The notes under the pieces were generated by a model, which saw nothing but the letters and a program-made list of their open reading frames with translations, made no database searches and was not told where the DNA came from. Position numbers and translations under genes: made by a program. A stretch of DNA of 64,000 nt, taken from the NCBI RefSeq assembly GCF_028369105.1, contig NZ_JAQNDO010000001.1:7100501-7164500 (forward strand). The letters are read 5' to 3'. Shown here in pieces: positions 17,107 to 34,041 of the stretch; within the stretch, counting starts at the first letter, position 1, and each line of letters starts with the position of its first letter. Source of the DNA: Polyangium mundeleinium (GTDB taxonomy: Bacteria; Myxococcota_A; Polyangia; Polyangiales; Polyangiaceae).

Positions 17107-17880
17107 TCAGTACAGGCCAGTCTGCTCGGGCAAGCAGACGCCCATCGCGCACAGGAGCAGATCGATGTCCGCGCCCGCGCAGCTCACCTGGCGCGCGCAG
17201 TAGTCATCGTATGCACACAAACGATGGCAGGACTGATCCGATCCGAGCGCGCGCACGTTCATGAGGCAAGCCCAGCCGGACGTCAGCCACAGGCCCTCGG
17301 GCTTGTCGAAGAGGCAGACTTCCTTGCGCTCCTCGGAGTCGTAGACCTCGGCCGTGCAGGCGTCGCGCTCGATCTTCTCGCGCGACTTCCCCATCGTGTT
17401 GAGCATGTACGTGAAGTCGCAGGCGCCGGCCGAAGTCGTGTCGCGCGAGACGCGGTAGCGCAGCGACGGGATGTCGAGCGAGCGTTGACGCACGCCTCGG
17501 AGCATCGCGACGAACTGGTTGTTGCCGCCGTCTTCCTTCGGCCCCTCGCGCAGCGCCGCGAGGATCTGCTCGTTCTGCGCCTCGACGCCGGGGTCCTCTT
17601 TGTCCGAGTAGCCGAGCCGGACGTACTTCTCGGGCGTCTTCGTCGTGCACGGCTTGGCGTGCTCCCAAAGCTTCTCGCTCACGACGGGCGGGCGCTTCGT
17701 CCCCTCGCGCTTGCACACCCCGATCGCGCCCACGGGCACGGCGCCCGAAGCGCGATCGGTCGGCTGACCCGGCGGCTCCTGGATGAACTCCGTGGACGTG
17801 CAGCTCACCGCTCCCACGGACACCACGAGCCCCGTCACGGCGAGGGCGGCGACCCGATGCAACGCTCTCTTCGTTCCCAC
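17107..17880 (-). CDS. cysteine-containing lipoprotein of unknown function
   Basis: 257 residues with a lipoprotein signal peptide (VTGLVVSVGAVSC, lipidated Cys27). The mature part holds about a dozen cysteines, several paired late in the protein (CHRLCAYDDYCARQVSC, LLLCAMGVCLPEQTG), suggesting disulfides outside the cytoplasm. No catalytic motif is recognised. It converges on the upstream kinase gene with about 30 bp between stops and is separated from the ligase operon by about 120 bp. Function unknown. Confidence 0.7.
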   Translation of the reverse strand: MGTKRALHRVAALAVTGLVVSVGAVSCTSTEFIQEPPGQPTDRASGAVPVGAIGVCKREGTKRPPVVSEKLWEHAKPCTTKTPEKYVRLGYSDKEDPGVEAQNEQILAALREGPKEDGGNNQFVAMLRGVRQRSLDIPSLRYRVSRDTTSAGACDFTYMLNTMGKSREKIERDACTAEVYDSEERKEVCLFDKPEGLWLTSGWACLMNVRALGSDQSCHRLCAYDDYCARQVSCAGADIDLLLCAMGVCLPEQTGLY

Positions 17881-18003
17881 GAGCGCACGGTATCACCGCG
17901 GAGGGCCCGGACAGAAATCCTCGGTGACAAAAGGCGCCTGACCAAAGGCCAAGTAGCCGGATCTTTTTGATTTTTTGGCGCGGACGGGCGCGAGTGCGGG
18001 CGC

Positions 18004-19131
18004 TCAGGCACCCATCGCGGTCTGCTCGATCAGGTGATCGACGATCGCCTGCACGCTCTGCGTCTTCTGGAAGACGGCGAGCTGTTTGTCCGCGCTCGTC
18101 CCCTCCCGGAGGATGCCGCGGACGCGGTCGAGATCGGCCTCGGACTTGAAGATGGCCGCGGCCTCCTCGACGAAGTCGAGCAACTCGCCGATGAGCACGC
18201 GCACGGGCAGTTGCTCCTGCTTGCCGAAATCGATGAGCTGGCCGTCGATGCCGTAGCGCAGCGCGCGCCACTTGTTCTCCTCGATGAGCTCGCGCGCGTA
18301 CTCGCGGAAGCCCATGTTCTTCCGGTAGAGCAGATAGAGCTTGCCCATGAGCGCCTGGATGAGCGCCGTCAGCGCGACGGTGTCGTCGATGCGCGTCGTC
18401 ATGTCGCAGATGCGCACCTCGACCGTGTCGAAGAACGGATGGGCGCGGACGTCCCACCAGATCTTCTTCGCGTTGTCGATACAGCCCGTCTTCACGAGCA
18501 GATCGACGTACGACTGGAACTGCGCGTACGAGTCGAAGTGGCCCGGGATGCCCGTGCGCGGGAAGCGCTTGAAGATCTCGCTGCGGATGCTCTTCAGGCC
18601 CGTCGAGCGACCAAGCCAGAACGGCGAGCTCGTCGAGAGCGCGAGGAGGTGCGGCAGGAAGTAACGGACCTGGTTCGCGAGCGCCATCGCGACCTCCTTG
18701 TCCTTGATGCCGACGTGGACGTGGAGGCCGAAGATCAGGTTCGCGCGCGCGACGTCCTGCAGGTCCTCGACGATCACCTTGTAGCGCTCGCCGTCGGTGA
18801 TCTCCTGCTTCTTCCAGTCGCTGAACGGGTGCGTGCCGGCCGCGACGATCCGGAGGCCGTGTTTGCCCGCGAGCGCACTGAGCTCCCCACGCAGTTCGCA
18901 GATTTCCTGGCGCGCCTGCCGGATGTCGCGGCAGATGCCCGTGCCCGTCTCGACGACGGACTGGTGCATCTCGGGCCGCACGCGCTCGCGCAGGACCGAG
19001 TGTTTCCCGCCCTCGAGGAGCTGACTCACGTACGAGCGGAGCTCGCGCGTCTCGGGGTGGACGATCTGAAACTCTTCCTCGATGCCGAGCGTGAATTGAC
19101 CGTCGAGCAGACCCTGGACCGTGGTGCTCAT
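18004..19131 (-). CDS. GCS2-type carboxylate-amine ligase (YbdK family)
   Basis: 375 residues, the normal length for the GCS2/YbdK glutamate-cysteine-ligase-like family, which makes amide bonds from a carboxylate and an amine using ATP. The signature LGIEEEFQIVHPETREL begins the protein; VVETGTGIC, GLHVHVGI and the late VEVRICDMTTR strand supply metal/ATP ligands known in the family. Its start overlaps the stop of the preceding gene (ATGA), making it the third gene of a coupled three-ligase operon. The context argues against routine glutathione synthesis and for a dedicated peptide-like product; that is inference. Confidence 0.88.
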   Translation of the reverse strand: MSTTVQGLLDGQFTLGIEEEFQIVHPETRELRSYVSQLLEGGKHSVLRERVRPEMHQSVVETGTGICRDIRQARQEICELRGELSALAGKHGLRIVAAGTHPFSDWKKQEITDGERYKVIVEDLQDVARANLIFGLHVHVGIKDKEVAMALANQVRYFLPHLLALSTSSPFWLGRSTGLKSIRSEIFKRFPRTGIPGHFDSYAQFQSYVDLLVKTGCIDNAKKIWWDVRAHPFFDTVEVRICDMTTRIDDTVALTALIQALMGKLYLLYRKNMGFREYARELIEENKWRALRYGIDGQLIDFGKQEQLPVRVLIGELLDFVEEAAAIFKSEADLDRVRGILREGTSADKQLAVFQKTQSVQAIVDHLIEQTAMGA

Positions 19132-20519
19132 GAATCTCCCTCGATGATGAACGTGGGGACCGTTCCCGCCCCCGCATGAACGTTACACATGTTCGTCGCG
19201 GATAACCTGCCCAGCATACCGCCGAGCTCGCCCCGAAACAGGATCGGATCGAGCTCGATGTGGCGCCGCGAGAAGTAGAGCTCGCCCGCCGCGCCGACCT
19301 CTGGGAACATCGCCGTCGGCAATGAAACGCGGAGCTGCAAAACGGACGGATCGATGAGCGCGAGCTTCAGCGCTCGCTCCCACACGCTGCTCTCCACGTT
19401 CGCGCCGATCACCACGCCGCGCCCGCCGACCTCGTCGTTCGGCTTGATCACGAGGCGCGCGCGGTTGTCACGAGCCCACGGGACGAGGTCGATCTCCTCG
19501 CCGTCCGGGCCTTCGGTCTTCATCTCCTCGACGTGCCTCGTCCACGGGATGAACTGGCGCACGGCGACGCTCTCGTCCTTCGTGTAGAGCGCCGTGACGC
19601 GCGGATCGAAGAGCAAGGCGAAGAGGACCTTCTTGTCGAGGAGCTTCGCGCGGAAGCTGTTCACGACGCACACGACGCGCGCCTTGTACGCCTCGATGAG
19701 CGGCCGCACCTCGTCCTCGCGGCCGAGCAGTTCGCTCGTGAGCACGCGGCGGTAGACGAGATCGATCTCCTCACCCTTCGCCGAGAGCTTGCCGTCGCGA
19801 TACTCGAGCTCGCGTGGATCGACGAACCGCGCCGGGATGCCGTGCAGCCGGAAGCGCTCGCAGATCATGTCGAACTCGGTCCGCGTCGCGACCTCCTGCC
19901 AGTCGACGACGGCGACCTTCGGGACGTGCGTCCCGCCGAACTCGTGCCACGCGTCGAGGATCGATCCGACGAGGGAGTTGCCCGCGTAGACCGGCGTGAT
20001 CGGCGAGACGCGCGCGAACTCGCGCATCGGCTGGAAGGCCTCGAAGAGCTCGGTGAGCCGGTCGGCGTAGCTCGGGCCGAAGGCGCCCTCGGCGTTGAGC
20101 TCGACGAACGAGAGCTCGGAGCCCGCAAGGATCGCGTCGAGGCGCGTGACGACGCCGACGGACTCGAAGGCCGGGTTGTAGGAGAAGAGCCGCCGCTCGC
20201 CGTCGGTCAGGCCCATGAGCTCGAGGAGCGTGGGCTCCGCGAGGATGAGGTCCTTGGCCTTGATGACGGCGCTGCGGAAGTGCCTGAGCGCCCCGAGGAG
20301 CAGGTTGTACTGGGCGCGGAGGACGAAGTTCGGGCGGAGGAACGTGCAGAGGGGACGACCGGCGAAGACGGCGCCTCGCGCCACCATACGCTCGAGCAGG
20401 GCGAGGTGATCCTCGCCCCCTCGATCCACGTAAGCCGTGAGCGCGTCGTGGTAGCGGTCGACGGCTGCGTCGAGCGCGGCGGTGAAGGGGTGCTTCGACG
20501 GCCGCTCGCAGAGGGTCAC
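19128..20519 (-). CDS. circularly permuted ATP-grasp-like ligase
   Basis: 463 residues. The layout fits the circularly permuted ATP-grasp type-2 families: SELSFVELNAEGAFGPSY early, VDWQEVATRTEFDMICERF, YRRVLTSELLG and VVNSFRAKLLDKKVLFALL in the middle, then LVIKPNDEVGGRGVVIG, a likely nucleotide-binding loop with lysine and glycines. These enzymes form amide bonds through acyl-phosphate intermediates. Both ends overlap neighbouring genes by 4 bases. No signal peptide. The exact family name is less sure than the fold. Confidence 0.75.
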   Translation of the reverse strand: MTLCERPSKHPFTAALDAAVDRYHDALTAYVDRGGEDHLALLERMVARGAVFAGRPLCTFLRPNFVLRAQYNLLLGALRHFRSAVIKAKDLILAEPTLLELMGLTDGERRLFSYNPAFESVGVVTRLDAILAGSELSFVELNAEGAFGPSYADRLTELFEAFQPMREFARVSPITPVYAGNSLVGSILDAWHEFGGTHVPKVAVVDWQEVATRTEFDMICERFRLHGIPARFVDPRELEYRDGKLSAKGEEIDLVYRRVLTSELLGREDEVRPLIEAYKARVVCVVNSFRAKLLDKKVLFALLFDPRVTALYTKDESVAVRQFIPWTRHVEEMKTEGPDGEEIDLVPWARDNRARLVIKPNDEVGGRGVVIGANVESSVWERALKLALIDPSVLQLRVSLPTAMFPEVGAAGELYFSRRHIELDPILFRGELGGMLGRLSATNMCNVHAGAGTVPTFIIEGDS

Positions 20520-21496
20520 GTGCTTCTATCCCACCGGATGGGTTCGACTTCGGCCGCCATCTTGCTCCAGGCGTAACGGTCGCGGATCGTGCGGCCTTCC
20601 TTGGCGGCGCGGACGCAGAAGTCGACCATCCAGTCGGTGACCGTGTCGAAGAAGCGCTCGCCGAGATGCTCGATGTGCATGTCGGGCGCGGGGTTCGTGA
20701 AGTCGATCGCGTAAGGGACGCCGTCCTTGATGGCGAACTCGACCGAGTTCATGTCGTAGCCGAGCGCGTGGTTCAGGCGCAGCGCGTCGTTGACGATGCG
20801 GTCGTGCAGGTCCTGCGGCAGCCAGCGCTCCTGGTCGCGGAAGATGTAACGACCGCGGAGCCCGGTCGGGCCGATCTGCTTCGGGTCGTACTGGATCGTG
20901 AGGACACGCTCGCGGCCGATGCAGATACAGCGCGCGTAGTCGTCGAAGTCGATGAACTCCTGCAGCGTCATCACGTTGAGGTTCGAGTCGTTGTAGGCGC
21001 GGAGCAGATCCCCCGGCGTGCGCACGACCGTCACGTCCTTCCAGCCGCCGCCGTCGGCGGGCTTGAGGATCGCGGGGAACTTCACGTAGTCGACGATCGC
21101 CTCCCAGTTCAGCGGGAACTCGAGGTTGCGCAGCGAGCGGTTCTTGTCGATCGCGGGGATGTAGTCCTTCTGCGGGAGCATCACCGTGCGCGGCGTGGCG
21201 ACGCCGAGGCGCGAGGCGAGCGAGTAGCCGAAGAACTTGTCGTCGGCGCTCCACCAGAGGGGGTCGTTGATGACGTACGCGCCGCCGAGCGCCGCGGCCT
21301 TGAGGTAGAAGCGGTAGTGCTTGACCTCCTGGCTGATGCGGTCGACGAGGACGCGGTACGGAGAGACGAAGCGCTCCGGCGTCCCTCCGATCTTCGCGAA
21401 CTCCGCGTGGATGCCCGGGACCCGGTTGCACCGATCGATGAACGCCTGGGGGAAGGACTGCTCCCAGCCAGCGAGAATGCCGATCCGCTCCGTCAT
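20516..21496 (-). CDS. ATP-grasp domain ligase
   Basis: 326 residues with an ATP-grasp layout: preATP-grasp domain (RIGILAGWEQSFPQAFIDRC), a lysine-bearing strand FPAILKPADGGGWKDV, hinge MTLQEFIDFDDYARCICIG, and the metal-binding end VEFAIKDGVPYAIDFTNPAP in which Glu, Asp and Asn are placed as in family members. It resembles RimK/D-Ala-D-Ala-type ligases. It is the first gene of the three-ligase operon and is transcribed away from the tRNA genes. The substrate is unknown. Confidence 0.82.
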   Translation of the reverse strand: MTERIGILAGWEQSFPQAFIDRCNRVPGIHAEFAKIGGTPERFVSPYRVLVDRISQEVKHYRFYLKAAALGGAYVINDPLWWSADDKFFGYSLASRLGVATPRTVMLPQKDYIPAIDKNRSLRNLEFPLNWEAIVDYVKFPAILKPADGGGWKDVTVVRTPGDLLRAYNDSNLNVMTLQEFIDFDDYARCICIGRERVLTIQYDPKQIGPTGLRGRYIFRDQERWLPQDLHDRIVNDALRLNHALGYDMNSVEFAIKDGVPYAIDFTNPAPDMHIEHLGERFFDTVTDWMVDFCVRAAKEGRTIRDRYAWSKMAAEVEPIRWDRST

Positions 21497-22897: not shown

Positions 22898-23045
22898 GCG
22901 GGTCCCTCCTCGATGGGATGTCCTGGTGCTTCGGACACGGGAGCCGCTGCACGGGTAAAAACGAGCGAGCGTTCGGCTCCTCCCGGCGAGGGACCGGTTT
23001 TCCTTGACACGACCCGGCCAAACCCTAGAGAGCTGTCTTCGACGC

Positions 23046-23834
23046 ATGAAGATCGTGAGCTGGAACGTAAACGGGCTGCGCTCGGTCCTCGGAAAAGGGT
23101 TCTGCACGTGGCTCGCGGAAGAGCGGGCTGACATCGTGGGCATCCAGGAGGTGCGCGCGCAGGAGGCGCAGCTCGGGCCGTGCCTGGAGTCGATCGGCGG
23201 CGCGTGGCTGCGCGCGTTCTCGTCGGCCGAGCGGCCGGGCTACAGCGGCGTGGGGCTGCTCTCGCGGCTGCCGGCGGATCGGATCACGACATCGATGAAG
23301 GACGCAGCGTTCGACGCCGAGGGGCGCGTGCAGATCGCGCGCTTCGGGAGGCTCACGCTGGCGAACGTGTACTTCCCGAACGGCAGCGGGCCAAACCGCG
23401 ACAACAGCCGCATCCCGTTCAAGCTCGCGTTCTACCGGCGCCTCTTCGACGTGCTCGAGCCGAGGCGGCGCCGTGGTGATCCGATCCTCGTGATGGGCGA
23501 TTTCAACACGGCCCACCGGGAGATCGATCTCGCGCGGCCGAAGGAAAACGTGAAGACGAGCGGTTTTACCTCGGAGGAGCGTGAGGAGCTCGATCGGTGG
23601 ATCCGCGCCGGCTACGTGGACACGTTCCGCGCCTTCGAGCCGGGGCCCGGGCACTACTCGTGGTGGAGCCAGCGGTTCGGCGTGCGCGCGAAAAACGTCG
23701 GGTGGCGCATCGACTACGTGCTCGCGTCGGAAGGCGCGGTGAAGCACCTCAAGCGCGCGTTCCTCTCGCCTCACGTGACGGGCAGTGATCACTGCCCCGT
23801 GGGTGTCGAGGTGGAGGACGCGATCGTGGGCTAG
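23046..23834 (+). CDS. xthA: exodeoxyribonuclease III
   Basis: 262 residues, standard length. XthA is an AP endonuclease and 3'-5' exonuclease in base-excision repair. Endonuclease/exonuclease/phosphatase motifs are complete: MKIVSWNVNGLRSV, the metal ligand IQEVRAQE, VYFPNGSGPNRDNSRIPFK, VMGDFNTAHREIDLA and the catalytic GSDHCPVGVEV. The start at 23046 puts MKIVSWN at the N-terminus as in the family. The stop overlaps that of the convergent downstream gene. Confidence 0.95.
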   Translation: MKIVSWNVNGLRSVLGKGFCTWLAEERADIVGIQEVRAQEAQLGPCLESIGGAWLRAFSSAERPGYSGVGLLSRLPADRITTSMKDAAFDAEGRVQIARFGRLTLANVYFPNGSGPNRDNSRIPFKLAFYRRLFDVLEPRRRRGDPILVMGDFNTAHREIDLARPKENVKTSGFTSEEREELDRWIRAGYVDTFRAFEPGPGHYSWWSQRFGVRAKNVGWRIDYVLASEGAVKHLKRAFLSPHVTGSDHCPVGVEVEDAIVG

Positions 23835-24921: not shown

Positions 24922-26271
24922 TCACGATTCGAGAATCTTCTGCAACGTAGCTTCGAGCTGGCGTGGATCGAAGCGCTTCGGCAGCACCGCTTGCACGCCG
25001 ATCACGCGCGCCTCTGCTTCGAGCTCCGGCGTGATGTCGGCGGCGAGCAAGATGAACGGGACGTCGGCGAGGCGCGGGTTCTCGCGCATCGAATGGCAGA
25101 GCTCGAGCCCCGACATGCCCTGGAGCGTCCGTTGACAGACGATCGCATCGGGCACGGCGCCGCGCATCGCGGCACGCGCCTCGTCGCCCGTGGAGGCCTC
25201 GATGACAGTGTACCGCTGGCCGAGGCTCGCGCGGACGAGCGCGCGGAGCGTGCGCGACTCATCGACGACGATGACACGTGGTTTCGCCGGACGAACCGTG
25301 GCGCGATCCCGCGCCTCGTGGCGGTGGATCGGGAAGAGGCGCGCGATCGTCTCCATGAGCAGCTCGCTCGGCGGCGGCGAGGTATGCAGGCGGAGCTTGC
25401 CGATCGCGTCGACGATCTCGAGTCCACGCGAGGGGCGGTTGTCGGGGTCGCGATCGAGCAGCCGGTGGACGATCTCGTCGAACTCGGGCGGGACGGCGCG
25501 GTTCTGGCTCGACGCGGGTGGCAGGTCCTCGGTCGTGACGCGCTGGATGGTGTGCGCCTCGGTCTCGCCGGTGAACGCGCTCCTGCCCGTGAGCATCTCG
25601 AAGAGGACGACGCCGAACGAGAAGAGATCCGAGCGCGCGTCGAGGCGGCCGCGCAGGATGGTCTCGGGCGCCATGTAGGCGAATTTCCCCTTGAGCGTGC
25701 CTGCGCCGCCCTGCGTGGGCGAGAGTCGCTCGCGTGCGCGCGCGATGCCGAAGTCGGCGAGCTTCACGACGCCCTCGCGCGAGAGGAGGATGTTCGATGG
25801 GCTCACGTCGCGATGGACGATGAGCAAGGGACGGCCGTCCTCGCCGAGCTTGTGGTGCGCGTAGTCGAGGCCGCGCGCGGTCTCGACCGCGATGTGCGCG
25901 ACCTCGGGGATGCTGAGGCGCTCGCCGCGCTTGCGGAGCTCGTAGAGCGTGGCGCCGAGGCTCGGGCCGTCGACGTACTCGAGGACGAGGTAGTACTGGC
26001 CGCCCTCCTCCGCGAACTCGACGACCTGCACGATGTTGCCGTGATGAAGGCGCGACGTGATGCGCGCCTCGTCGCGGAACATCGCGATGAACTCGTCGTT
26101 CGACGCGTACTGCGGGAGCACCCGCTTGACGACGACCTCTTTCATGAAGCCGTCGGTCCCCGTGAGGCGGCCGAGGAGCACCTCGGCCATGCCGCCATAG
26201 GCGAGCCTGCGGTTGATCTGATACTTCCCCAGCCGCTCCGGGAGCTCCGGCTCCTGCATCGGAGGAACCAT
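24922..26271 (-). CDS. Ser/Thr kinase fused to a degenerate receiver domain
   Basis: 449 residues, no membrane segment. The kinase domain (about 15-285) has LAYGGMAEVLL, VVVKRVLP, HRDVSPSNI, DFG and MAPETI. The tail (about 330-449) is a receiver fold: VIVVDESRTLRALV, then PDAIVCQRTLQGMSG, then LLAAD, then VLPKRF. The phosphoacceptor Asp aligns with Gln380 and the conserved Thr/Ser with Ala, while the Lys is kept, so it cannot be phosphorylated in the normal way. It follows CheB by 18 bp in the chemosensory operon, suggesting a regulatory output or adaptor role. Confidence 0.88.
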   Translation of the reverse strand: MVPPMQEPELPERLGKYQINRRLAYGGMAEVLLGRLTGTDGFMKEVVVKRVLPQYASNDEFIAMFRDEARITSRLHHGNIVQVVEFAEEGGQYYLVLEYVDGPSLGATLYELRKRGERLSIPEVAHIAVETARGLDYAHHKLGEDGRPLLIVHRDVSPSNILLSREGVVKLADFGIARARERLSPTQGGAGTLKGKFAYMAPETILRGRLDARSDLFSFGVVLFEMLTGRSAFTGETEAHTIQRVTTEDLPPASSQNRAVPPEFDEIVHRLLDRDPDNRPSRGLEIVDAIGKLRLHTSPPPSELLMETIARLFPIHRHEARDRATVRPAKPRVIVVDESRTLRALVRASLGQRYTVIEASTGDEARAAMRGAVPDAIVCQRTLQGMSGLELCHSMRENPRLADVPFILLAADITPELEAEARVIGVQAVLPKRFDPRQLEATLQKILES

Positions 26272-26289
26272 ATCAGCTCCTTCGCTCCA

Positions 26290-27756
26290 TCAATGACGCG
26301 AGCGCGCCGGGGCACGGACGCGCTCGACGATTTCGGGGCCGAGTTCGTCGAGGGACAAAACGGCATCCGCGTATCCGCGAGAAATCGCGGCACCTGGCAT
26401 ACCGCTTACCACGCAGGAATCCGGCGACTGGACGAGCACACTTCCGCCGGCCGCTTTGATTGCGCGCAGGCCCTCGACGCCGTCGTTGCCCATGCCCGTG
26501 AGCATCACGCCGAGCGCGCCGTCGCCGAAATGCCGCGCAAGGGATTCGAAGAGCGGCGTGCCCGAAGGGCGATGGTTGCCGACGGGCGGGCCCTCGATGA
26601 CGCCGATCGTGAGCGGCGATTGCGCGACGAGGTGCTTGCCTTCGGGCGCGAGCGCGATGACGCCGGCGCGCAAGGGCATGCCGTGCGTGGCGAGGCGAAC
26701 GGGGAGCTGCGTGACCTCGGCGAGCCACTCGGCGAGGGCTTCGTCGAAGCCCGCGAGGACGTGCTGCACGATCAGGACCGGGACGGACGAGGTGGCCGCG
26801 GCCAGGCCCGGCAACATCGCGGCGATGGCCGCGGGGCCGCCCGTGGAGGCGCAGATGCCGACGACCGTGGCGCGGTTCTGCGCGCGATGGCTGCCGCCAC
26901 GGCGTGATCGCACCGAGCGCGGCCCGTCGGCCCAGCGACGAACCACGGGGATCTCGGCGAGCATCTTGATCTTGTCGCGCAAAGCGACGGCCTGCGGCCC
27001 CATCGGATCACCCCAGCTCGGCCGCGCGATCACGTCGAGCGCACCGGCCTCGGTCGCGGCGAAGATCTGCGCGGCGGGGCGGCTGCCCTGCTGATCGGAG
27101 ACGATGACGACGCGGGTCGGCGCGAGGGCCATGATGCGGCGGGTGGCGGCGACGCCATCGAGGCCCGGCATCATCGCGTCGAGCAGGATGATCTGCGGGT
27201 TCTCGCGCACGGCGAGATCCACCGCGCCCTGGCCGTCGCGCGCCATGCCGACGACGTCGATCTCGGGATCGGCCTTGAGGACACGCGCGAGCAGCGTGCG
27301 GCCGACCTCGGTGTCGTCAGCAATGACGACGCGGATCACGGGGCGCACCCTGCGGCTCGAAGGGACGACCGGCGCGGACGGGATCGTGAGCGCGAGGATC
27401 GTGGAGACACGCGCGGCGAGCTGCGATCCGTCGACGGGCTTCGGGAAGAAGGCGTCGATGTAACCCGTGGCCAGAAGATCGCGCTCGCGGAGCTCCTTGT
27501 TCGCGCTGATGAGGATGACCTTCGGCGCGAGCGTGCCTCCCCTCTCCTTCACGCGACGCGCGAGCTCGAGCCCGTTCATGTTGGGCATCGCGTAGTCGGT
27601 GATGACGAGATCGAAGGGCTGGCTCGACGTGCCCATGCGCGTGAGCGCGTCGTCGCCGTTGCTCGCGACCTCGAGATCGAGCGCGAGTCCGGCGAGGTGG
27701 GCGCGCACGATGTCGCGCATCACGACCGAGTCGTCGACGATGAGAACACGTGCCAT
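26290..27756 (-). CDS. cheB: CheB methylesterase with two receiver domains
   Basis: 488 residues: REC1 (1-120, phosphoacceptor Asp54 in VITDYAMPN), REC2 (about 138-265, IILLDAMMPGLDG) and the CheB catalytic domain (about 295-480) with serine in CASTGGP, histidine in IVQHVLAGF and aspartate in GMGNDGVEG. CheB removes methyl or amide groups from MCP glutamates. The canonical CheB has one REC; the extra N-terminal REC could take phosphate from CheA or from another input. The start overlaps the CheA stop by one base. Confidence 0.93.
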   Translation of the reverse strand: MARVLIVDDSVVMRDIVRAHLAGLALDLEVASNGDDALTRMGTSSQPFDLVITDYAMPNMNGLELARRVKERGGTLAPKVILISANKELRERDLLATGYIDAFFPKPVDGSQLAARVSTILALTIPSAPVVPSSRRVRPVIRVVIADDTEVGRTLLARVLKADPEIDVVGMARDGQGAVDLAVRENPQIILLDAMMPGLDGVAATRRIMALAPTRVVIVSDQQGSRPAAQIFAATEAGALDVIARPSWGDPMGPQAVALRDKIKMLAEIPVVRRWADGPRSVRSRRGGSHRAQNRATVVGICASTGGPAAIAAMLPGLAAATSSVPVLIVQHVLAGFDEALAEWLAEVTQLPVRLATHGMPLRAGVIALAPEGKHLVAQSPLTIGVIEGPPVGNHRPSGTPLFESLARHFGDGALGVMLTGMGNDGVEGLRAIKAAGGSVLVQSPDSCVVSGMPGAAISRGYADAVLSLDELGPEIVERVRAPARSRH

Positions 27757-30479
27757 CAGGCCCTCCCCACGAGCTCGTTCACGGTCTTCACAAACACCTC
27801 GTGATCGAACTCGCTCTTGACGATGTAGGCGTCGGCGCCGACGGCGAGGCCTGCGCGGCGATCCTCATCGGAGCCGAGCGACGTGACCAGGACGACCGGG
27901 AGCCGCCGAAGCCGCTCGTTTTGCCGAATGTTCGAGCAGAGCTCGAGGCCGGACATTTCGGGCATCGAAACGTCGCTCACGACGATGTCGAAGGTCTCGA
28001 GCTCGAGCGCCGAGAGCGCTTCGTTGCCGTCTGCGACCGCGACGACGTCGAAGCCGGCGACCTCGAGGACGGATCGCTCCAGCGCGCGGGTGGTGAATGA
28101 ATCGTCGACCAAAAGGAGCCTCGGCTTGGGGCGGTTTTCGACCCTCGGCAGGAGCGCCCGGAAGCGGTCGGCGTCGCGTCCGGAGGCCGAGCGGAGGAGA
28201 TCGATGGGATTTAACATCAACACGACACGGCCGTCCCCAAGGATGGTCGCACCTGCGATGTTCCGTACACGAACCAGCGGCGGTTCGAGGTTTTTTGCAA
28301 GGACCGTCTGATCACTGACGATCTCCCGGACCGCGAGCGCGCACCGGGTCTCGCCGATGCCGATGACCAGGACCGGGATGCGCTCGGGCGGCGGAGGAAG
28401 CTCGACCGGAAGGCCGAGGAGCGTGGCCAGCGGGACGAGCGCGATCGGACGGCCATCGACGACGATCGCATGCGTGCGCTCGACCTCCAGCACGTCCGTC
28501 GCGCTGATGCGCAAGATGCGCTGGATCGAGGAGATTGGCATCGCGAACTGCTCCTCGCCGACGCGCAGGAGCAGCGAGTGGACGACGTAGATCGTGAGCG
28601 GCAGGACGATGACGAAGGAGGTCCCCACGCCCTGGCGCGACTCGACGGTGACCGTGCCGTGGAGCCGCTCGATGTTGGTGCGGACCGCGTCGAGCCCGAC
28701 GCCGCGGCCCGAGAGCTCGCCGACCTCGGAGCGCGTCGTGAGGCCGGGCGCGAAGAGCAGTTCGAGGACGCGGTGCTCGGGCATCTCCGCCGCTTCGAGC
28801 GCCGACGCGAGGCCCGACGCGATCGCCGCGCGGCGCACGCCGGCGATGTCCACGCCCGGGCCGTCGTCGCTCACCGTGATGGTGACGACGTCACCGCGAT
28901 GCTCGGCGCGGATGCGGATCGTGCCGCGCGAGGGTTTGCTCGCAGCGGCGCGGGCGCCCGGGTGCTCGCAGCCGTGATCGATCGCGTTGCGAAGGAGGTG
29001 GTAGAGCGGATCGCGTAGCTCTTCGAGGACCTTCTTGTCGAGCTCGAGCTCGGCGCCCGTGATGACGAGGTCGACCATCTTGCCGGCCTCGCGCGCCATG
29101 TTGCGGACCGCGCGCGGCAAGGGCTCGAGCACGCTCGCGAGCGGGAAGGTCTGGATGCGGCGGATGTCCTCCTGGAGCTGGCCCGAGAGGATCGTCGACT
29201 GGAGCGCGTCGGCCTCGAACGCGCGCACGATCTCGCGCAGCCTGCGCACGAGGAGTCGCTCGTGTTCGAGGTCCTCGTTCTGCACCTCGACGAGCCGCTC
29301 GGACCAGCTTTCGAGCTTCGCCGGCGCCTCGTCGCGCACCATCGCGCGGATCGCGGTCTGCGCCTTGAGGCGCTCTTCCTCGGCGGAGAGGACGGCGCGG
29401 AGCTCGGCGAGGCGTTGATCGGTGCGCACGCGCGCGGCGAGGAGCTCGCCGACCTGCGCCATGAGCGCCGAGAGTTTTTTCATGGAGACGCGAAGCGTCT
29501 CTTCGGTGCTCGAACGTAGCGGCGCGGGAGCGTTCGGGATCTTCGGGAGCTGCCCCGTCGCATTTGGGCCCCGCTCGCTGCCTTGGGCCATCGAGCGGGC
29601 CGCGGCCACCGCAGCGCCGGCCGAGGTGCCGGGCGAGCCCGCGGACGTGCCGGGTGCGTTGCCGCCCGAGGTGCCAGGCGTGACGACAGGCGCAGGCGGC
29701 GGCGTGATGCCCCCCGGAATCCCGAGGTCCGCGCGCGCGACGTACCCCGTCGAAGGGCCGTACGGGCCGATCGCGGGCGAGCTGAACCCGACCGGCGGAG
29801 GAGGACCAAAGCCCGCGGGGATCGGCGCGCCGTCGTAGTGCGAGGACACGAGGGGCACGCTCGCGTGCGGATGCGGCGGCGGCTCGCTGTGCTTCGTCTT
29901 CGGCTCGGCGTAGCCCGCGCTCACGTTGGGCGCCGGCGCCGGGGCCTCGGCGGCCATCCGGTGCTGCCGCAAGATCGACTGGGGGCTTCGGGATCGCGTC
30001 GCGACCGTGATGCCGTCGGCCGGCCGCACGACGGGCGGCGGCGGCGGGGCCGGCAGCGGCAGGGCATGCGAGGGTTTTGATGCCAGGAGCACGGCTTCGA
30101 GGCCCTCGATCGCCTCCAGGATGACGAGATCCGGCTCGGGGTTCGGATCCACGCGCAGCGCGTGGTGCACGGTCGAGAGGCCCGCGTTCAGCGTGTCGAA
30201 GACCTCGGGCGCGCGCTCGTGGTCCATCGCGCGGAGCGAGGCGAGGACCGACTCGATCGCGTGCGCGAGGCGCGCCGTGTGCGCGAACCCGAGCGAGCTC
30301 GCGGCGCCTTTCATGTTGTGCGCTTGCCGGAACGCCTCGTCGATGAGCTGCTCACGCGCGCTGCCCTCGGCGCCGCGTTCGACGAGGAGGAGCGCCGTGC
30401 CGATGCGCTCGACCTGCTCGACGGCCTCGTTGCGAAGGGTCTCGCAGAGGGCCTCGAACGCCGCGTCGTCGAGGGCCAT
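27756..30479 (-). CDS. cheA: CheA histidine kinase-receiver hybrid (FrzE-like)
   Basis: 907 residues. An Hpt domain with His54 (RQAHNMKGAAS), a Pro/Gly-rich linker (about 140-330), dimerisation and HATPase domains (LLRNAIDHGCEHPG, DDGPGVDIAG, GRGVGLDAVRTNIE), a CheW-like regulatory domain, and a C-terminal receiver with phosphoacceptor in FDIVVSDVSMPEMSG. CheA-REC fusion is the architecture of FrzE of Myxococcus. It autophosphorylates in response to the MCP array and passes phosphate to its own REC or to CheB. Overlap with the upstream CheW gene is one base. Confidence 0.93.
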   Translation of the reverse strand: MALDDAAFEALCETLRNEAVEQVERIGTALLLVERGAEGSAREQLIDEAFRQAHNMKGAASSLGFAHTARLAHAIESVLASLRAMDHERAPEVFDTLNAGLSTVHHALRVDPNPEPDLVILEAIEGLEAVLLASKPSHALPLPAPPPPPVVRPADGITVATRSRSPQSILRQHRMAAEAPAPAPNVSAGYAEPKTKHSEPPPHPHASVPLVSSHYDGAPIPAGFGPPPPVGFSSPAIGPYGPSTGYVARADLGIPGGITPPPAPVVTPGTSGGNAPGTSAGSPGTSAGAAVAAARSMAQGSERGPNATGQLPKIPNAPAPLRSSTEETLRVSMKKLSALMAQVGELLAARVRTDQRLAELRAVLSAEEERLKAQTAIRAMVRDEAPAKLESWSERLVEVQNEDLEHERLLVRRLREIVRAFEADALQSTILSGQLQEDIRRIQTFPLASVLEPLPRAVRNMAREAGKMVDLVITGAELELDKKVLEELRDPLYHLLRNAIDHGCEHPGARAAASKPSRGTIRIRAEHRGDVVTITVSDDGPGVDIAGVRRAAIASGLASALEAAEMPEHRVLELLFAPGLTTRSEVGELSGRGVGLDAVRTNIERLHGTVTVESRQGVGTSFVIVLPLTIYVVHSLLLRVGEEQFAMPISSIQRILRISATDVLEVERTHAIVVDGRPIALVPLATLLGLPVELPPPPERIPVLVIGIGETRCALAVREIVSDQTVLAKNLEPPLVRVRNIAGATILGDGRVVLMLNPIDLLRSASGRDADRFRALLPRVENRPKPRLLLVDDSFTTRALERSVLEVAGFDVVAVADGNEALSALELETFDIVVSDVSMPEMSGLELCSNIRQNERLRRLPVVLVTSLGSDEDRRAGLAVGADAYIVKSEFDHEVFVKTVNELVGRA

Positions 30480-31084
30480 CAGCCGCGCTCCTCGACGCGC
30501 AAGGAGCGGTCGGACAGGAGCGATCCGAGATCGAGGACGACGGTGCGATCCTCGAGCACGCCCAGCGTGTGACGCTGGACCAGCGGGGGAAACGTGGGCA
30601 TGGCCTTGGCGATCGTGCGGCGGTTGACCTCGATGATATTGTGGAGCGCGTCCGCCGCCACCGCGCAGACGACCTCCGCGTTCGACGCCATGACGAGGTG
30701 CTCGGCAGACGTTTCGGAGCGCGCGTCGGGCGTGAAGAGCAGCGGCAGATCAACGACGGCGACGATCCGACCACGGCGCGCCGCGACGCCGAGGAAATAC
30801 TCGGGCACGCCGGGGACACGCGTGATCCGGCTCATCGGGCCGACCTCGTCGACGGACTCGAGCTGCACGGCGTAGCGCCGCCCGCTCCGCTCGAAGACGA
30901 TGCAGCTGATCGAGTCAGGCGCGCGCTCGAGGCGCGTCGGCTCGCGCGCGATGCGGCGCGTCCGCTCGGCGAGGATACGCGGATGAACCTCACGCTCGCC
31001 GCTCTTGCCCTCGCGCAGCTTCTCCTCGAGCTCGGCGAGCGAGGTGCGCAGCTTCTCGTAGACGCTCTCTTCCCGGGCGCTCAT
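30479..31084 (-). CDS. cheW: CheW-like adaptor (second in operon)
   Basis: 201 residues. The N-terminal ~50 residues are charged and helical (EEKLREGKSGEREVHPRILA), then a CheW domain begins at SCIVFERSGRRYAVQLESVDEV and runs through ITRVPGVPEYFLGVAARRGRIVAVVDLPLLF. It bridges MCP and CheA. Its ATG at 31084 overlaps the CheR-TPR stop and its stop overlaps the CheA start. The N-terminal extension is longer than usual for CheW. Confidence 0.9.
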   Translation of the reverse strand: MSAREESVYEKLRTSLAELEEKLREGKSGEREVHPRILAERTRRIAREPTRLERAPDSISCIVFERSGRRYAVQLESVDEVGPMSRITRVPGVPEYFLGVAARRGRIVAVVDLPLLFTPDARSETSAEHLVMASNAEVVCAVAADALHNIIEVNRRTIAKAMPTFPPLVQRHTLGVLEDRTVVLDLGSLLSDRSLRVEERG

Positions 31085-32484
31085 TGGATCTCGGTGTCTC
31101 GAAACAGCCGGAGCAGCCGGCCCACGGTCATGCCGTCCCATCCCTCGATCGGCGCGTCGACGCCCTTGCCCCGCGCGACCGTGAGGGCGCGCAGGCGTGC
31201 GGCGTGGCGTTCGACGAGATCCGGGCGGCCGAGGCGGAGGCCCGCCACGGCCGCGCCCGCATGCGCGAGCATCATCGAGGGATCGAGGTACACGCAGCGG
31301 CGGAAGGCGTCGAGCGCTGCTTCGAAGCCGCCGAGCTCGACCAGGAGAAGCCCCTCGAGCAGGTGCGCCCGCGGCTCCTCGGGCTCCTCTTCGAGCAGCG
31401 CTTCGAGCTCGGCGAGGGCGGCTTCGAGGTTCCCCGCATCGGCGTGGGCGAAGGCGCTCGCGAGCGAGGGCGCCGCACCCGAGGCCAAAGGCGCGGGCGC
31501 AGGCTCGGGCACCACGGGCGGAGGTGTCGCGGCGACGACCGGAGGCGCGGCCACGCCCTCCGTACGCAGTGCCGGCAAGGGCGCGGGCGGGATCGAGAGA
31601 AGCGCGTACCGGCGGCCGCGCGGCGAGGAGGGCGGCACGCTCACGGGCCCGAAGCGCTCGTGCACCACGACCTCGCCGACGTGCACCGATCGGCATCCGG
31701 GCACGTCCCCGGCGTGGTCCACGGGGCCGAACATCAAGACGCCGCCCGGCGCGAGCGCGGCCGCGAGCGAGGCGATCACCTCAAGCCGCGCATCCGGCTC
31801 CAGGTAATAAAGGACGTTCTGGCAGAGGATGAGATCAAAGCCCCTCGGAAACACGTTCACGAGCGGACCTTCCGTGAGCCCGAAACGACGAAACCGCACG
31901 AGGCGACGCACGTCCTCGGCGAGGTGCCAGAAGTCGCCCTCGGTGCGGAAATACTGGCGGCGCACCACCTCGGGCACGTCGCGCAGTGACCACTCCGAGT
32001 ACCGCGCGGATTCGGCCTTCTGCAAGGAGCGCGGGTTCAGGTCGACGCCCGTGACCTCGACGCGCAGCCCCTCGTTCATGGCGGCCTCGCCAAGCACGAT
32101 CGCGAGCGAATAGGCCTCTTCGCCGGTGGAGCAGCCGGCGGAGAGCGCGGTGATCACGCGCTCCTTGCGCCGCTTGCGCACGAGCGAAGGGACGAGCTCG
32201 CTGCGCAGCGCCTCGAACTGCGGAGGGCCGCGAAAGAAGTGGGTCTCGCCGACCGTGAGCTCCGCGATGAAGGGCTCGAGCTCGGCCGTGTCGTGCGAGA
32301 GGATCACGTGCTCGAGGTAGGCGTCCGTGGTCACGCCACGCTCGGCGGCGCGACGCTCGGCCACGCGCTCGATGATCTCGAGGTTGCGGGGGCGCATCTG
32401 CAGCCGCGTCCGCGCGCGGACCAGCTCGCCGAGGCGCCGCACGACACCCGGATCCGGGGCACGCCGGGCCTCAGCTCGAGCCAT
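31081..32484 (-). CDS. cheR: CheR methyltransferase with C-terminal TPR (FrzF-like)
   Basis: 467 residues. The CheR N-terminal helix region and SAM-binding domain are present: VGETHFFRGPPQFEAL, ALSAGCSTGEEAYSLAIVL (SAM loop), GVDLNPRSLQKA, and FDLILCQNVLYYL. A Pro/Ala linker then leads to TPRs (LASAFAHADAGNLEAALAEL, LLVELGGFEAALDAFRRCV). It methylates glutamates on the MCP. CheR with TPR is the FrzF architecture. The ATG at 32484 is chosen over an upstream start because the extension overlaps CheW; the overlap is then 14 bases. Confidence 0.92.
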   Translation of the reverse strand: MARAEARRAPDPGVVRRLGELVRARTRLQMRPRNLEIIERVAERRAAERGVTTDAYLEHVILSHDTAELEPFIAELTVGETHFFRGPPQFEALRSELVPSLVRKRRKERVITALSAGCSTGEEAYSLAIVLGEAAMNEGLRVEVTGVDLNPRSLQKAESARYSEWSLRDVPEVVRRQYFRTEGDFWHLAEDVRRLVRFRRFGLTEGPLVNVFPRGFDLILCQNVLYYLEPDARLEVIASLAAALAPGGVLMFGPVDHAGDVPGCRSVHVGEVVVHERFGPVSVPPSSPRGRRYALLSIPPAPLPALRTEGVAAPPVVAATPPPVVPEPAPAPLASGAAPSLASAFAHADAGNLEAALAELEALLEEEPEEPRAHLLEGLLLVELGGFEAALDAFRRCVYLDPSMMLAHAGAAVAGLRLGRPDLVERHAARLRALTVARGKGVDAPIEGWDGMTVGRLLRLFRDTEIQ

Positions 32485-32899
32485 GGTAGGCGTCCTCCGG
32501 ACCGAGCACGAGCACGAGGTCGTCCTCGATACGCACGACACCCGGCGAACGTACGCCGGCGATATCCCCCGGCTTTTCGATCGCGTCCTCCTGCACGGTC
32601 ACCACGTCCCGGACCTCATCGACCGCAAGCCCGAGCAGCTTTCCGTTCGCGGCCCGGACGATGACGAGGTGCTGGTAGAACGGCAGCGGCTTCGTCTGCG
32701 AGAGCCGTCCGCGCAGATCGATCACCGGCACGACGCGGCCGCGCAGATTGATCACGCCGAGCACCTCGGAGGGCGCGTCGGGCACGTGATCGAGCTGCAC
32801 ACGCGGGATGATCTCGACCACGTGCTCGCACGGGATCGCGCAAGGGCGGCCGCCCATCCGCGTGAGGACGAGGTTCGTCACCCCGCCGTCCAAGCTCAA
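32471..32899 (-). CDS. cheW: CheW-like adaptor (first in operon)
   Basis: 142 residues, a single CheW domain of normal length: [41 protein letters not shown] and [13 protein letters not shown]. It overlaps the MCP gene by 4 bases (ATGA). Two CheW proteins in one operon match the FrzA/FrzB pairing. Confidence 0.93.
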
Positions 32900-33981
32900 G
32901 CCTCCGTGCCGTGGTCGTGGGCCCGGATCGGCTCCGTCAATCGGGCCAGCCGATCGAGCGCGATTTCGGCCTGCTCCACGCTGATCTTCGTCTCCTGCGT
33001 GGCCATGTTGATCTGCTTCATGCCCTGGGCGATCTGCTCGAGCCCGAGGCTCTGCTGCCGCATCGCGCCCGTGATCTGCCGGGCCGCGCGCGTCGTCTGG
33101 TTGATGACGTAGACGAGCTGCCCGAGTCGCTCGCCGATGCGGCGCACCTTGGAGCTGCCCTCGGTCGCGGCCTTCGAGCCCTCCTCGGTGACCATCGCGG
33201 CGCTGTGGCTCGCCTTCTGGATCTCGCCGAGGATCGAGCGCACCTGCTGCGTCGCTTGCTTCGACTGCTCGGCGAGCGTGCGGATCTCGAGGGCGACGAC
33301 GGCGAAGCCGCGTCCGTGCTCGCCGGCCTTCGCTGCCTCGATCGAGGCGTTCAGGGCGAGCAGCTTGCTCTGCTCGGCGATCTCGTTGACGCTGCTGATG
33401 ATCTCGCCGATCTGCTGCGTGCGCTCGGTCAGATCAAGGATCTTGGCCGCGATCAGCTCGACCTGCTGGCGCAGCCGGTCGATGCCCTCGATCGCGGCGA
33501 CGACGTCGCGCTGGCCGTCCTGCGAGATCTGCTCCGATTGCTCGGCGATCTGGATGATCCCTTCGGCCTTCTCGACGTTCTGGATCCCGACCTCGTTGAG
33601 CTCCTCGATGGTCGTCGTGATGTCGTTGACCATCCCGGCCTGCTGGCTGCCGCTCGCGGCCTGCTGACGCGTGCTCGCGAGGAGCTCGGCGAGCGTGCCC
33701 GCGACCTGCTGGCCGAGCGTGCGCATGCGCGTCGCGGCCGCGACCCCGCGGCCCGCCTTCCGGTTCGAATCGACGAGCGTGGAGAGCGCCGCGTGGAGGC
33801 GGGCCGCGCGCGGCTCGTCCGCCGGCGGAGCCGCGAGCTCGCGCCCGTCGTCGCCGCGCGCGATGGCCTCGACGTCGGTGACGATGCGATCGAGGTAGAC
33901 GTCGATCTTGCGCCGTGTAACCGCGCGGCGGGCCGCGGGATCGCGCTCTTTCTGCTCGTTCGAATCCGTCTTGTCAGCCAC
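32896..33981 (-). CDS. cytoplasmic methyl-accepting chemotaxis protein
   Basis: 361 residues with no membrane segment or HAMP domain, like FrzCD. The signalling hairpin tip is conserved ([40 protein letters not shown]), flanked by coiled coils with glutamates that CheR/CheB could modify. The N-terminal ~100 residues are a short helical region rather than a known sensor domain. GTG at 33981 is chosen because GGAGA lies about 5 bases upstream, rather than a TTG at 34026. The FIST protein 60 bp upstream may supply the sensing function. Confidence 0.9.
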
Positions 33982-34041
33982 TTGCTCTCCGCTTCTCAGC
34001 TTCGGCTCGGTCGCCCCGTTTTTCAACCCGGATCGTCTGCT

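Follow-up and report, generated by a model that had tools for sequence, protein, structure and literature searches.

The window analysed in this study is a 64,000-nucleotide stretch of Polyangium mundeleinium DNA (G000:C1:7100501-7164500, from a genome of 13.25 Mb in two contigs), and its subject is an operon of three putative ligase genes on the minus strand. The first gene of the operon, AGR (20516-21496), encodes a predicted RimK/Ddl-like ATP-grasp ligase of 326 amino acids (aa). It is followed by CPG (19128-20519), which starts with GTG and encodes a predicted circularly permuted ATP-grasp ligase of 463 aa, and by GCS2 (18004-19131), which encodes a 375-aa carboxylate-amine ligase of the PRK13515 type, a relative of YbdK. 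Both junctions carry a 4-base overlap (GTGA and ATGA), which indicates translational coupling of AGR, CPG and GCS2. The original prediction had read the locus as one transcript of three overlapping genes for different amide-bond-forming folds, and the overlaps and the three families agree with this. The reading frames of AGR, CPG and GCS2 were intact in all six Polyangium copies compared, with ratios of nonsynonymous to synonymous substitution of ~0-0.20, and the proteins were 94-100% identical to their counterparts in four named Polyangium genomes. Genes for tRNA-Val and tRNA-Asp lie upstream of the operon on the opposite strand. All positions were taken from the open reading frame (ORF) listing, tblastn or genome searches and not from the GC-based gene call, which picks the wrong strand in places (e.g. 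over GCS2 in loci L034 and L035) and misses window positions 23004-23834.

AGR matched the NCBIfam model rimK_fam with an E value of 8.5e-9 and 35.2 bits, under the cut-off of 143.4 bits that defines the RimK glutamate ligase family. The best Pfam match was weak (ATP-grasp_3, E 0.054). A 17-member AGR profile matched biotin carboxylase (E 1.6e-9), D-Ala-D-Ala ligase (E 1.9e-9) and 3vpb (E 1.9e-6). Residues K145, P146, G149, G150, E253, D265 and N268 were invariant in the 17 aligned sequences, and among them are residues that we take to be the ATP-grasp lysine and the Mg-binding positions. By its homology to solved enzymes and these conserved residues, AGR is assigned to the ATP-grasp superfamily.

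CPG matched Pfam CP_ATPgrasp_2 (PF14403) with an E value of 3.4e-5 and 23.4 bits, under the gathering score of 32. A 21-member CPG profile matched 3n6x (E 1.4e-13), Cp1B (9cjn, E 1.2e-11), YgiC (E 1.4e-6), glutathione synthetase 5oes (E 1.1e-6) and glutathionylspermidine synthetase (E 4.8e-5). R126 was invariant and D128, E140 and N142 were nearly invariant in the 21 aligned sequences, and the E-x-N motif stands ahead of the Lys-Gly loop, which is the motif order of a permuted ATP-grasp. The motifs R126-x-D128 and E140-x-N142 have counterparts in R139, D141, E163 and N165 of Cp1B by a by-eye match, HMMER having left this stretch of Cp1B unaligned. PMC12568646 reports that replacement of these four Cp1B residues abolished or significantly attenuated activity. 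The original prediction had made its case depend beforehand on the second protein being ATP-grasp-like; judged by its profile matches to 3n6x, Cp1B and 5oes, CPG is ATP-grasp-like, and it is permuted as well.

GCS2 was the most clearly classified of the three. It matched Pfam GCS2 (E 2.7e-68) and NCBIfam PRK13515 (NF010039; E 2.6e-159), scoring 529.9 bits against a cut-off of 371, and its profile found YbdK (1r8g, E 1.2e-77). By this curated score it is a full member of the YbdK/PRK13515 family. Copies of this family occur in 31 genomes of the phylum sample, and 20 of the 26 copies inspected had neither an AGR orthologue nor CPG in a surrounding stretch of ~6-20 kb. AlphaFold models were of poor confidence for CPG and AGR (pLDDT 51.8 and 46.5).

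The absence of thiotemplate and transport genes nearby, as originally predicted, held in the proteins covered: domains of nonribosomal peptide synthetases (NRPS), polyketide synthases and transporters were found in none of the 20 window proteins scanned with Pfam, which are under half of the 44 ORFs counted by the rough GC-based gene call. A short precursor gene, which the original prediction had also failed to see, did not appear either. There were 46 ORFs of 20-80 aa around the operon, of which the six outside the main genes were inspected; the other 40 lie inside or antisense to genes. Of the six, five flank the two tRNA genes and the sixth spans the start of the lipoprotein-like gene described below. 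Their matches in G196 and G347 ranged from 33 to 85% identity, with the higher figures coming from short stretches. None of the six had a convincing precursor pattern of the kind expected beside a graspetide ligase, and a hidden peptide precursor among these six was rejected. Two further candidates were dropped: a defence system, since a PADLOC search of seven proteins gave no match, and a plasmid origin, since window positions 17107-21496 had no megablast match in the plasmid collection.

The distribution of the operon was determined in 115 genomes sampled from the order, mostly drafts and 64-100% complete in the rows listed, in which single absences can be gaps. The intact trio was present in five (G000, G327, G344, G346 and G196). 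Full-length CPG was present in these and in G115, which has AGR and CPG without GCS2. In G347, AGR and GCS2 accompany a CPG remnant whose internal deletion removes the catalytic middle, and G272 gave only a partial match, to a more distant relative of CPG. CPG is thus the least conserved member of the trio, and the trio as a conserved unit was rejected. AGR adjoins GCS2 without CPG in six genomes (G239, G287, G290, G293, G296 and G339). In G117 and G136, which belong to another family, CPG is followed by GCS2 and then by a nitrilase-family gene (cut by the contig end in G136); a TAG was reported within the GCS2 match of G117, and a phylum-wide AGR search found no match in either genome. These pairs indicate that the links between the genes recur separately. 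The original prediction had called the combination a hallmark unit; its AGR-GCS2 and CPG-GCS2 pairs do recur, but the whole trio is confined to the five genomes above and its further partners lie outside the operon.

The match of CPG to glutathione synthetases and glutathionylspermidine synthetase, together with the nitrilase-family gene behind CPG-GCS2 in G117 and G136, raises a glutathione-type thiol pathway, in which GCS2 would make gamma-Glu-Cys, CPG would add the third residue and AGR a further group. The nitrilase family includes the repair enzyme of deaminated glutathione. Several findings speak against such a pathway. GCS2 passes the PRK13515 cut-off and none of the listed glutamate-cysteine ligase equivalog cut-offs. 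It occurs without CPG in 15 of the 21 GCS2 genomes, and one of the remaining six has the remnant only. Because a canonical GshB N-domain is encoded elsewhere in the genome (PF02951, E 1.6e-33), glutathione is unlikely as the product. Overall, we regard a thiol pathway of this kind as quite unlikely.

Three further genes extend the set. GAT and CPX were found as neighbours of AGR in relatives, AGR2 is the second match of AGR, and each was then counted in the 115 genomes. The thresholds were E <1e-115 for AGR orthologues, E <=1e-20 for GAT, E <=1e-6 for CPX and E <1e-160 (looser, 1e-60) for GCS2 orthologues. In the window's genome these partners lie elsewhere: GAT, a class-I glutamine-amidotransferase-like protein, at G000:C1:7526900-7527796; AGR2, a paralogue of AGR, at G000:C1:12201050-12201943; and CPX, a second CP-ATP-grasp-like protein, at G000:C1:5914306-5915493. 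AGR orthologues were present in 22 of the 115 genomes, and these were also the genomes with GAT, so that the two calls agree over all 115. CPX was present in 20 of the 22 (missing in G041 and G115), GCS2 in 18 (missing in G041, G115, G144 and G283) and AGR2 in 16, and neither CPX nor AGR2 occurred in any of the other 93. Outside the 22 there were only a decayed AGR in G163 (E 2.7e-45, uncounted) and, at the looser threshold, distant GCS2 proteins (52%) in three genomes without AGR (G066, G309 and G310). Fisher P values among AGR, GAT, CPX, GCS2 and AGR2, not corrected for phylogeny, ranged from 4e-24 (AGR-GAT) to ~2e-14; that of CPG with AGR was 2.7e-5, also uncorrected. AGR and GCS2 are members of an enzyme set whose retention or loss in relatives tends to be joint. 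The four genomes without GCS2 group in the GAT tree; in the AGR tree they fall, together with family f4, into a single open group of eight rows. Since GAT stays in these four genomes, it goes with AGR rather than with GCS2.

In a few genomes the set is also linked. All five genes lie within 5 kb in G339, where GAT (cut by the contig end), AGR and GCS2 are on one strand and CPX and AGR2 are convergent to them, and the same five-gene cluster is present in G006. G115 carries GAT, an esterase gene, AGR, CPG and an M28 peptidase gene on a single strand, and GAT adjoins AGR in G041 and G144. Signs of decay were seen in two genomes. G163 has an AGR-like protein of 34% identity without the K-P/GGG and DFTNP motifs, beside a lipoprotein-like gene; GAT, CPX, GCS2 and AGR2 all went unmatched in this genome at the thresholds given above. 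G348 (86% complete) is the sole long branch in AGR (0.51) and in CPX (0.81); its GAT branch (0.48) is one of four long rows. Its AGR, CPX and GAT are on different contigs, and the TAG reported in its AGR stands at the tail and does not break the gene. We counted G163 and G348 as decay of the genes together, in favour of a shared pathway. GAT itself keeps the class-I catalytic Cys/His/Glu: C112, H214 and E216 were invariant in eight sequences, and the triad is also present in a partial ninth.

The co-kept enzymes point to a pathway, so far undescribed, that would make a small peptide-like compound. We lean towards the view that the operon is part of an NRPS- and ribosome-independent pathway to a small amide-linked metabolite, both chemistry and product being inferred. 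Successive ATP-dependent ligases would join free building blocks (amino acids, amines or other carboxylic acids), with AGR, CPG and GCS2 encoded in the operon and GAT, AGR2 and CPX elsewhere on the chromosome. AGR, AGR2, CPG and CPX would each convert a carboxylate to an activated acyl phosphate, a reaction proposed from the fold that the profiles indicate, with CPX as the weakest case. GCS2, by its family, would form an amide between an amine and an acid, in the classical case glutamate through its gamma-carboxyl. The constant co-occurrence of AGR and GAT suggests that they may form a glutamine-dependent amide synthetase, in which GAT would feed ammonia to AGR. By its distribution, CPG would be an accessory ligase in some Polyangiaceae-like genomes, and the Polyangium product may therefore carry one group more than that of relatives. 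The product would be a small free peptide metabolite, probably amidated and gamma-glutamyl-like. A more specific version can be put forward only tentatively: the Polyangiales would share a small amide metabolite or cofactor made by at least five dispersed, co-inherited enzymes, its committed step would be a new AGR-GAT two-protein synthetase, and CPG of the operon would derivatise the Polyangium version. Ligase pathways that work without NRPS are difficult to detect from clustering alone, and most parts of this one are unlinked. The presence pattern instead yields a gene list, namely AGR, GAT, CPX, GCS2 and AGR2, with CPG and perhaps an esterase. If AGR and GAT work as proposed, the pair would constitute a new amide-forming enzyme that depends on glutamine, and a patchy set of myxobacterial genomes would share a compound not yet described.

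The gene set as such was not found in the literature searched, and known systems resemble it in part. Carbamoyl-phosphate synthetase pairs a class-I glutaminase with ATP-grasp, and the AGR-GAT pair may work in the same way. Like that enzyme, the pair consists of separate GATase-like and ATP-grasp proteins that co-occur, here in 22 of 22 genomes, with the GATase triad kept. Unlike it, AGR is single, short and nearest to RimK and Ddl, and GAT is only distantly related to named amidotransferases. The nearest biochemical parallel found, to go by homology, is the fungal E-64 pathway with Cp1B and Cp1D. According to PMC12568646, Cp1B activates a free carboxylate and joins a free acid to free amino acids to give pseudodipeptides, after which a second ligase acts, so that two ligases work in succession without NRPS. 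The likeness of CPG to this ligase is one of predicted homology. No GCS2, GAT or RimK-like ligase was found in the passages of PMC12568646 consulted, and no Cp1A-like oxygenase was found in the 20 scanned window proteins. Linked genes for ATP-grasp and COOH-NH2 ligases are also a feature of amidoligase networks, for which PMC4431377, with reference to Iyer et al. 2009, takes such genes to perform successive ligations. Unlike those networks, the present gene set is dispersed and includes a class-I GATase-like protein, and alpha-E, NTN (N-terminal nucleophile) hydrolase and transglutaminase domains were found in none of the 20 scanned window proteins. Amidoligase networks are reportedly the subject of Iyer et al. 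2009. In the CP_ATPgrasp_2/alpha-E tagging system, these three kinds of protein are encoded adjacently; here CPG scores below the Pfam threshold and the partner domains are missing among the scanned proteins.

Several observations weigh against a small-metabolite pathway of this composition. GAT lies directly beside AGR or one gene off in just 5 of the 22 genomes, and in most genomes the members of the set are unlinked or on separate contigs. GCS2 and AGR2 are not obligatory, since 4 of the 22 lack GCS2 and 6 lack AGR2. Polyangium GAT reaches 17.3 bits and misses the Pfam GATase gathering score of 22.8; it has no PDB match, and the NCBIfam amidotransferase models matched far below cut-off. The GAT copy of G115 gave no Pfam GATase match. 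CPX has no match in Pfam, NCBIfam or PDB. It does align to the CPG profile across 353 columns (hhalign probability 95, E 5e-8), a link made by one profile comparison with a shallow alignment. The activity of CPX is uncertain, because it has E-x-Q for the E-x-N of ATP-grasp and mostly Q for the R of R-x-D. The correlation of pairwise distance matrices of four families (Pearson 0.74-0.91) counts in favour of the set, but shared ancestry alone would be expected to give it. The uncorrected P values overstate the association, because the lipoprotein-like gene, judged a mere neighbour, also gives P 7.6e-4 with AGR. Finally, the acceptor of the ligases may instead be a protein or polymer.

The last two points each lead to another explanation. 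If co-occurrence mostly reflects shared ancestry, many genes were retained in a few clades, and no joint function would link AGR, GAT, CPX, GCS2 and AGR2. Fisher values that ignore phylogeny, the P value of the neighbouring gene and the lack of linkage in most genomes all fit this. They have to be set against the agreement of the AGR and GAT calls in all 115 genomes and the clusters of five genes in G006 and G339. In families f1 and f4 alike, some genomes have the whole set and others lack all of it, and genus g11 is split for AGR and GAT, G115 having both and G249 neither. If f1, f4 and g11 are monophyletic, several concordant gains or losses are required. We consider it very unlikely that the co-occurrence is mostly due to shared ancestry.

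The other explanation is that the ligases act on a protein or on a polymer of the cell envelope, as in peptide tagging or decoration, and do not make a free metabolite. RimK-like ATP-grasp enzymes are able to append glutamate to the ends of proteins. In Polyangium, G196 and G347 the operon is followed by LIPO (window 17107-17880, minus strand), which lies 123 bp downstream of GCS2 and encodes a 257-aa Cys-rich protein, lipoprotein-like by eye and without a Pfam or NCBIfam match. A gene for the flippase MurJ lies near GAT in 5 of 21 loci inspected. No acceptor gene is kept with the operon, however. LIPO was matched in 11 of the 115 genomes: it is absent from 15 of the 22 AGR genomes and present in four others, of which G163 has the decayed AGR and G120, G331 and G353 have no AGR orthologue. 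As a pathway member it was thought unlikely for this reason, and it is probably a syntenic neighbour outside the pathway. MurJ among the GAT loci is limited to Polyangium, G196 and G347, and the partner domains of known tagging systems named above were lacking in the scanned window proteins. The peptide-tagging reading of the original prediction thus gained no positive support here, and we regard tagging or decoration as unlikely. A pathway to a small amide-linked metabolite remains our preferred reading.

Other genes were observed around the members of the set. A subtilase (S8) gene lies divergent within ~2 kb of GAT in 12 of the 21 GAT loci inspected. The loci with S8 beside GAT or MurJ near GAT were L081, L082, L086, L169, L170, L214, L217, L218, L220, L221, L225 and L226. 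An esterase-type alpha/beta hydrolase gene lies beside AGR2 in G006 and G339, 3.8 kb from CPX in G144 and between GAT and AGR in G115 (L086:5527-6561, L174:4991-5770, L203:12429-13208 and L041:7700-8482), and the esterase may be a further pathway member.

Relatives of the ligases were also found outside the set. A longer relative of AGR (open frames mostly ~410-500 aa, ~30% identical, e.g. L129:16233-17549) occurs in 29 of the 115 genomes and never shares a genome with an AGR orthologue (0 of 22, P 9e-4, uncorrected); G163 carries it in addition to the decayed AGR. Across 282 genomes of the phylum, AGR-like and PRK13515-like GCS2 proteins co-occur in 21 of the 31 GCS2 genomes (P 1.4e-5, uncorrected). 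At L045 (G229:C155, 220-5746, minus strand), a gene for a MATCAP/QEGLA-type protein (PF08014, E 3.3e-85; TIGR02421, 309 bits, below cut-off) is flanked on both sides by a CP-ATP-grasp ligase gene of the same strand. The name of PF08014 refers to a relation to microtubule-associated tyrosine carboxypeptidases, and the adjoining ligase and carboxypeptidase could form a bacterial add-and-remove cycle. On two contigs of metagenome-assembled genomes, one named Eremiobacterota (L037:3552-5758 and L038:8001 onward), a CP-ATP-grasp gene is followed in a shared gene order by a gene for a 315-aa protein that looks by eye like a caspase-fold peptidase. Within the window itself, positions 24922-34026 on the minus strand hold a chemotaxis-type cluster (CheB, a CheA-like kinase, CheR and a methyl-accepting chemotaxis protein) beside a Ser/Thr kinase-receiver fusion.

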